Of a stretch of DNA of 46,221 nt, positions 19,014-19,765 are shown one piece after another. Every line of letters starts with the position of its first letter. Within the stretch, counting starts at the first letter, position 1. Made by a program: the position numbers and the translations under genes. Location: assembly GCA_001593865.1 (NCBI GenBank), contig LUCB01000001.1:87670-133890 (forward strand). Reading direction: 5' to 3'. Source of the DNA: Candidatus Bathyarchaeota archaeon B24 (lineage in GTDB: Archaea; Thermoproteota; CALKCG01; B24). Under the pieces are notes generated by a model. That model had not been told where the DNA came from and ran no database searches. It saw only the letters and a list, made by a program, of their open reading frames with translations.

Positions 19014-19740
19014 GTGAAATTTTTGTCCTATGAGAGTTTTAAGGAGGAAAAAGAACGGCTCATAGAGATCTACATCAGAGAAGGGATCTTAAAGACCAAG
19101 CTCGTTATAGAGGCCTTCAGAAAGGTCCCACGTGAAAACTTCGTCCCAGATTACCTTAAACACTACGCGTATGCAGACACTCCTCTACCCATAGGTCATG
19201 GCCAAACGATATCTGCACCACACCTTTAGCCGTTTAAAGCGGCTAAAGGGGTGAAACATGGTGTGTATAATGAACGAAGAGCTTGAGCTAGAGATAGGGT
19301 TAAAGGTGCTTGAGGTAGGAACCGGGTCTGGATACCATGCATGCACTATAGCCGAGGCAGTCGCCCCTTCAGACACTTCTAAGGAGAAGTGGGGGCACGT
19401 ATGGACCGTCGAGATAATACCTCAGCTCTGTAAACTGGCCGAGAGAAATATACGTAAAAGCGGATATTCAGATAGGGTTACTGTGATATGCGGAGACGGC
19501 TCGCTGGGGTATCCTGAAGAGGCACCCTACGACCGTATCCTCGTGACGGCAGCGGCACCGGATATACCGGATACGCTCGTAGAGCAGCTTAAGCCAGGGG
19601 GTGTCATGGTTCTACCCGTAGGGACGCCTGGGGGATTTCAGGAGCTAGTTAAAGTATACAAAAAGCCTAACGGCTCGGTGGAGACTAAATATCTCGGAGG
19701 AGTAGCGTTCGTTCCTTTAAGGGGTAGGAAAGGCTGGTGA
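19014..19740 (+). CDS. pcm: Protein-L-isoaspartate O-methyltransferase, split by a 34-nt BHB-type intron
   Basis: Repairs isoaspartyl residues in aged proteins by SAM-dependent methylation. Exon 1 (19014-19221) gives [10 protein letters not shown] and [10 protein letters not shown]; exon 2 (19256-19740) gives [14 protein letters not shown], the SAM loop [13 protein letters not shown], and the C-terminal [14 protein letters not shown] and [12 protein letters not shown]. Read straight through, the frame stops at TAG 19227, in the middle of the ISAPHM-V-x-M block that all family members keep intact. Removing 19222-19255 joins CAC to ATG and yields one 230-residue protein of normal length. The removed piece folds into the core of an archaeal splice motif (see the intron entry). 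I therefore annotate it as one spliced gene, not two. GTG 19014 is the likely start. Confidence 0.85.
19222..19255 (+). other. Candidate 34-nt bulge-helix-bulge intron in pcm
   Basis: Seen in sequence: CACC (19216-19219) pairs with GGTG (19250-19253) as a 4-bp central helix. It is followed on the 5' side by the 3-nt bulge ACA (19220-19222) and on the 3' side by the 3-nt bulge AAA (19254-19256). Inside is a perfect 10-bp stem, CCTTTAGCCG with CGGCTAAAGG, and a 7-nt loop (19233-19239). Archaeal splicing endonuclease normally cuts after the second base of each bulge, here after 19221 and 19255, which restores the reading frame exactly. The outer exon helix is weak (two pairs, a mismatch, one wobble), so this would be a relaxed HBh'-type motif. 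The intron carries the in-frame TAG that ends the unspliced frame. Confidence 0.82.
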
Positions 19741-19765
19741 ACGACCATCCTTAGGACAGGGAGCC

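Follow-up and report, generated by a model that had tools for sequence, protein, structure and literature searches.

A predicted bulge-helix-bulge intron in the pcm gene of Bathyarchaeia and a sister class of archaea

In the stretch of DNA analysed here (46,221 nucleotides from Candidatus Bathyarchaeota archaeon B24, hereafter the window), the gene pcm, encoding protein-L-isoaspartate methyltransferase, is interrupted by 34 nt at positions 19222–19255. Comparison with homologous genes leaves us in little doubt that this insert is a bulge-helix-bulge (BHB) intron of the pcm pre-mRNA, which would be removed by the splicing endonuclease EndA, with the exons joined by RtcB.

The pcm frame opens with GTG at 19014 and reads through GQTISAP to the C at 19221, after which it continues as HL and meets a stop (TAG, in frame at 19227–19229). 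The remainder of Pcm starts in another frame at 19258, the second exon reading A CAT GGT from 19256. The insert sits between bases 1 and 2 of a His codon (CAC), and is thus in phase 1; excision of exactly 19222–19255 gives a joined pcm frame without a stop, in which SAP-H-MV is rebuilt. Against NF001453 and TIGR00080, two models of protein-L-isoaspartate methyltransferase, the joined Pcm scores 234 and 219 bits, respectively, above the cut-off in both cases, and the two halves match complementary parts of a third model, NF010549 (model positions 4–65 and 65–213). The features of the site are as follows.

19014..19221, plus strand: pcm exon 1, comprising 69 codons and the first base of the His codon; start at GTG or at the in-frame TTG 19023; profile match up to model position 65
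19216..19219, plus strand: 5' strand of the central helix, CACC, in exon 1; covaries with 19250–19253 in 111 alleles
19220..19222, plus strand: 5' bulge ACA, NCN in all 111 alleles; predicted cut after 19221, as the known geometry of EndA cleavage and the restored frame indicate
19222..19255, plus strand: putative 34-nt BHB intron, phase 1; homologous inserts of 20–48 nt at the same codon in more than 100 genomes
19223..19249, plus strand: intron hairpin, 19223–19232 forming 10 perfect pairs with 19240–19249, or 12 pairs with the next two (one G.U)
19250..19253, plus strand: 3' strand of the central helix, GGTG, in the intron; pairs with CACC at 19216–19219
19254..19256, plus strand: 3' bulge AAA, NNA in all 111 alleles; predicted cut after 19255; its last base is base 2 of the His codon
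19256..19740, plus strand: pcm exon 2, the rest of the His codon and then M70 to the stop, 160 codons after His; profile match

An earlier, sequence-only reading of this DNA had described pcm as broken by 34 nt carrying a TAG, with a 4-bp CACC/GGTG helix, bulges ACA and AAA and a perfect 10-bp hairpin, and our reading of the DNA agrees on each count. When the 46-kb window was scanned on both strands, under strict settings, for BHBs bridging two interrupted open reading frames, the pcm site alone was returned, and a looser scan of about 350 kb of the same genome gave mostly noise (weak helices and long loops). Where pcm ends, a loose scan gave a weak BHB-like arrangement (19717–19759), which would fuse pcm to the next open reading frame (19766 onward) and is probably due to chance. 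Reading the TAG through as a sense codon was considered and rejected, since 34 nt read through in this way would still leave exon 2 out of frame.

To examine the prevalence of the insert, the joined Pcm was used in a protein search; in several relatives the match was broken in two at one common position, with a small gap between the parts, and a scan of named contigs gave the same picture. The DNA of these relatives carries an insert at the same codon, differing in sequence and length and alike in plan. Within the window's own small class of Thermoproteota, five of the seven genomes carry the intron (G005 and G006 are without it). In Bathyarchaeia, a covariance-model search recovered the intron form from about 112 of 257 genomes, a figure that counts matches of 75–105 nt (57 nt being the length of the intronless gene) and includes a few carriers recognized by match length alone. 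The carrier genomes are mostly metagenome assemblies. One locus from the class holding Bathyarchaeum (L163) is identical at the intron site to that of Ca. Bathyarchaeum tardum (L039), whose pcm intron is 30 nt long, and the sole known genome of a third class, G013, has a 23-nt pcm intron (L190:1-1001, L265). No further carriers were present among 398 genomes sampled over the phylum, where matches in other groups were of intronless length; the gene was likewise intronless wherever the site could be read in Desulfurococcales, Lokiarchaeia, methanogens and others, with SAPHMV or its equivalent running straight through, and in the Asgard homologs read at the site in the scan of named contigs. Intronless sisters (L004, L005 and L037) read SAPHMV directly, the insert being cleanly absent, so that related pcm genes either carry the insert at the same codon or precisely lack it, a comparison that the sequence-only reading had proposed. 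That reading had also called such introns rare, which is true of the kind and does not hold for this one, conserved as it is in more than 100 genomes.

The comparison yielded 111 distinct alleles (106 distinct intron sequences), in which the register is fixed by the coding frame on both sides; the alignment was therefore not fitted to the structure. Apparent 12-nt inserts in L020 and L025 were artefacts of the motif search and were excluded, and of four matches initially left unparsed three are intron carriers, L207 standing outside that count. Intron lengths range from 20 to 48 nt, with a mode of 31, and fall into all three residues modulo 3 (31/49/31), indicating that the insert is not translated as a peptide. 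These lengths also set the inserts apart from self-splicing group I and group II introns, which have a ribozyme core of some hundred nucleotides. A strict 3-4-3 BHB with the intron hairpin inside is found in the window and in essentially all 111 alleles, the central helix being CGCC/GGCG in 102, CACC/GGTG in seven, a G.U variant in one and mismatched in one. With bulges of the form NCN and NNA throughout, a single rule, cutting after the second base of each bulge, restores GQTxSAPHM[VI] in 111 of 111 alleles, extending to the whole family what had been proposed for the window. A linkage of the bulge ACA or TCT to a Pro codon, seen in 14 sequences, disappeared in the 111 alleles, where ACT, TCA and ACG occur as well. 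In Bathyarchaeia family f25 (L191–L208, for example L201), pcm introns of only 20–22 nt keep the full BHB, with 13–15 nt between bulge and central helix and a 4–7-bp hairpin that has a tiny loop; they lie near the lower limit reported for the introns of the archaeal gene cbf5 (16 bp).

Pairing is maintained in the predicted register and falls when the register is moved. For the first five pairs of the intron hairpin, 97% of cells in the 111 alleles are paired, and sliding one strand by -2, -1, +1 and +2 lowers this to 14%, 31%, 57% and 24%, respectively; for the central helix the value is 99.8%, versus 25–37% slid. None of 1000 shuffles reached the value of the second central pair or of any of the seven inner pairs, and pairs deep inside the stem fall to 65% paired. 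In a MAFFT alignment of 14 sequences, 91% of cells are paired (74% shuffled, 24–39% slid), 10 of 15 pairs have changed on both sides, and 49 double changes are seen versus 16 after shuffling. Compensatory changes are thus present in both helices of the pcm intron.

These data bear on the proposal that pcm is simply a split gene, in which exon 1 and the open reading frame from ATG 19258 encode two polypeptides that associate, the hairpin serving as a spacer or regulatory element. A 160-codon open reading frame does begin with ATG right at exon 2, and each half matches pcm profiles by itself; that ATG, however, is the ordinary Met of the HMV motif and is found in intronless homologs too. Two separate polypeptides would make the frame entering exon 2 irrelevant, yet one cutting rule always rebuilds the exact His codon, and a spacer hairpin leaves unexplained both the covariation between exon 1 and the intron in the central helix and the exact 3 + 3 nt bulges of 111 alleles. 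We consider a split gene very unlikely. Full-length protein could also be made from unspliced RNA if the ribosome bypassed the insert, as in T4 gene 60, or shifted frame, and an in-frame stop and a stable hairpin might suit such an event. The take-off and landing codons, however, are unmatched (CAC versus AAC in the window, different in other alleles), the length and frame of the insert vary so freely that simple frameshifting is excluded, and what is conserved is the BHB geometry known from EndA substrates, with no bypass signal; we regard translational bypass as extremely unlikely.

The window segment folds better than its shuffles (z = -3.0), its BHB register lying 0.6 kcal/mol above the predicted minimum. 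Less favorable to a BHB, just 42 of the 111 alleles have the exact register as their predicted minimum at 37°C and 68 at 65°C, the median gap to the minimum being 1.0 and 0 kcal/mol, respectively. The outer helix, which had been called weak, is predicted in the window allele to span 7 bp with a 1-nt bulge; the description holds for the family, because only the first G-C pair is general across alleles, with little beyond it.

Both parts of the gene are under selection. The dN/dS between the window and G001 is about 0.20 for exon 1 and 0.06 for exon 2, and that between G002 and G003 about 0.01 and 0.07, respectively, indicating purifying selection on both exons and hence that both code for functional protein. 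The chance that pcm is a decaying gene disrupted by the insert, or that the insert is an assembly artefact, a thought invited by the draft state of the genome (37 contigs, 90% complete), is practically nil. The comparative data already refute it, since separate assemblies made in many studies have homologous but different inserts at this codon and purifying selection on both exons is strong.

A tree of 133 Pcm proteins, built after removal of the insert, places the window's class together with most Bathyarchaeia (SH-aLRT 85), carriers and non-carriers being mixed within this group. To account for presence and absence of the intron, the tree requires 12 changes, a minimum of four being forced by well supported branches. 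The pattern suggests one old gain and several clean losses. The Pcm of G013 falls elsewhere, beside an intronless Hecatellales sequence (support 81), and its intron may therefore reflect either an older origin or transfer of an intron-bearing gene. In Bathyarchaeia family f4 (L230–L240), many intronless pcm alleles stand among intron-bearing ones and show no scar, which would fit precise loss of the intron on repeated occasions, the outcome expected from replacement of the gene by spliced mRNA in the form of cDNA.

The sequence-only reading had argued that a heteromeric endonuclease would be needed and that its subunits should be sought in the genome. We found two PF01974 proteins and one RtcB. 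The EndA alpha subunit, 186 aa long and encoded at L098:1468-2028, has its match in the catalytic chain of the Aeropyrum pernix enzyme (3p1z_B, E 7e-46) and keeps the catalytic Tyr, His and Lys. It also has a CSL-type loop with K-P-K, ISKPKTADF aligning with VEKPRGADF of A. pernix (K44-P45-R46), so that the expected two-subunit enzyme is present with the crenarchaeal loop lysine motif in its catalytic subunit. The residues of this loop carry the broad specificity of crenarchaeal EndA (PMC6379350, PMC12397907). In the EndA beta subunit (L099:1198-1782, 194 aa) the catalytic His is replaced (KKPAKY), and it looks like a structural subunit. Separate catalytic and structural subunits with a Lys-Pro-(Lys/Arg) loop are thus found at the level of sequence, and an (alpha-beta)2 heterotetramer is predicted. 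In the window's genome, a beta-type EndA gene (C26:74771-75025) has RtcB (C26:70689-72005) as a near neighbor, at a distance of about 3 kb (L287, G000:C26:60001-80000). About nine of 43 tRNA matches in the genome span 94–123 nt, as expected of intron-bearing tRNAs, and one long match was confirmed as tRNA-Gln(CTG) with an intron. EndA, RtcB and intron-sized tRNA genes together indicate that a splicing system is present and has other work. When introns were allowed, ARAGORN called 'Pyl(CTA)' at L274:5704-5798 (minus strand); we rejected this call in favor of the default one, tRNA-Gln(CTG) with an intron, and the locus could easily mislead a search for TAG recoding in this lineage.

EndA and RtcB constitute the established archaeal splicing pathway, on which the following sequence of events is modeled. 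The pcm transcript would fold with CACC, near the end of exon 1, paired to GGTG of the intron, adjoining the intron hairpin; the two-subunit EndA would cut within each 3-nt bulge (19221/19222 and 19255/19256); RtcB would ligate the exons, restoring SAP-H-MV, and would probably circularize the intron. The conserved site and structure, the covariation, the frame rule, purifying selection, clean absences and the presence of the enzymes make splicing by EndA and RtcB very likely.

The closest known counterpart is the cbf5 pre-mRNA intron of Desulfurococcales and Sulfolobales, 16–44 bp long (Watanabe 2002; Yoshinari 2006; Yokobori 2009, PMC2738675). Like it, the pcm intron is of BHB type, belongs to the same size class (20–48 nt), lies in the open reading frame of a conserved protein with intronless homologs, and splits a conserved-motif codon after its first base (the catalytic Asp in cbf5, His in pcm); both are old, show clean lineage-specific losses and go with a heteromeric EndA. 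The pcm intron differs in its mostly strict 3-4-3 geometry, in occurring in many more genomes, and in its gene and lineages (Bathyarchaeia and a sister class), making it a second member of the kind and not a cbf5 intron; its carriers include Bathyarchaeum tardum, a species grown at 30°C (PMC10477458). For cbf5 splicing has been proven; for pcm it is predicted. With archaeal tRNA introns, at 37/38 and elsewhere, the pcm intron shares the recognition motif, the size and presumably the enzymes EndA and RtcB; it differs in that its host is an mRNA without a tRNA fold to guide the enzyme, leaving only the local motif available. EndA also processes an mRNA untranslated region through a BHB motif (PMC7714728), although no split reading frame is joined there. 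Putative 12-bp introns of an archaeal virus (Peng et al., as cited in PMC2738675) are likewise short intron-like inserts in coding genes; as described in that citation, they keep the frame and their splicing was never shown, whereas the pcm inserts break the frame and covary as BHBs. Yokobori et al. (PMC2738675) also mention unconfirmed intron predictions in other archaeal protein genes (virus, Sulfolobus review), and a 2020 study gave cbf5 as the only mRNA intron of this kind then reported (PMC7714728). The sequence-only reading knew of no such intron in pcm, and we found no earlier report of one in open-access full texts; a report in a subscription journal or preprint is possible.

Negative regulation is the role that Yokobori and colleagues suggested for the intron of cbf5 (PMC2738675), and by analogy the pcm intron could act as a negative regulator. 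Tentatively, and as a rather unlikely reading, the intron may have been kept over class-level time for a function, for example a hairpin over the interrupted codon that ties Pcm levels to splicing capacity or temperature, and may belong to a set of several BHB introns so far overlooked in the protein genes of Bathyarchaeia and sister classes, gene calls there being systematically split. One Bathyarchaeia genome contains a BHB-like element (L126:2850-2899, plus strand; 50 nt with a 12-bp hairpin) that would join two open reading frame pieces of about 60 codons; it could be a second mRNA intron or chance.

In more than 20 years, no archaeal protein gene besides cbf5 has been established as carrying a spliced intron, and pcm would be an ancient second case. 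Present in more than 100 genomes and lost several times, the pcm intron offers independent material on how mRNA introns originate and persist without a spliceosome, and it supports the idea that a heteromeric, broad-specificity EndA permits such introns. In Bathyarchaeia, pcm is probably mis-annotated as two fragments, and the cultivated carrier Bathyarchaeum tardum makes the predicted splicing directly testable.
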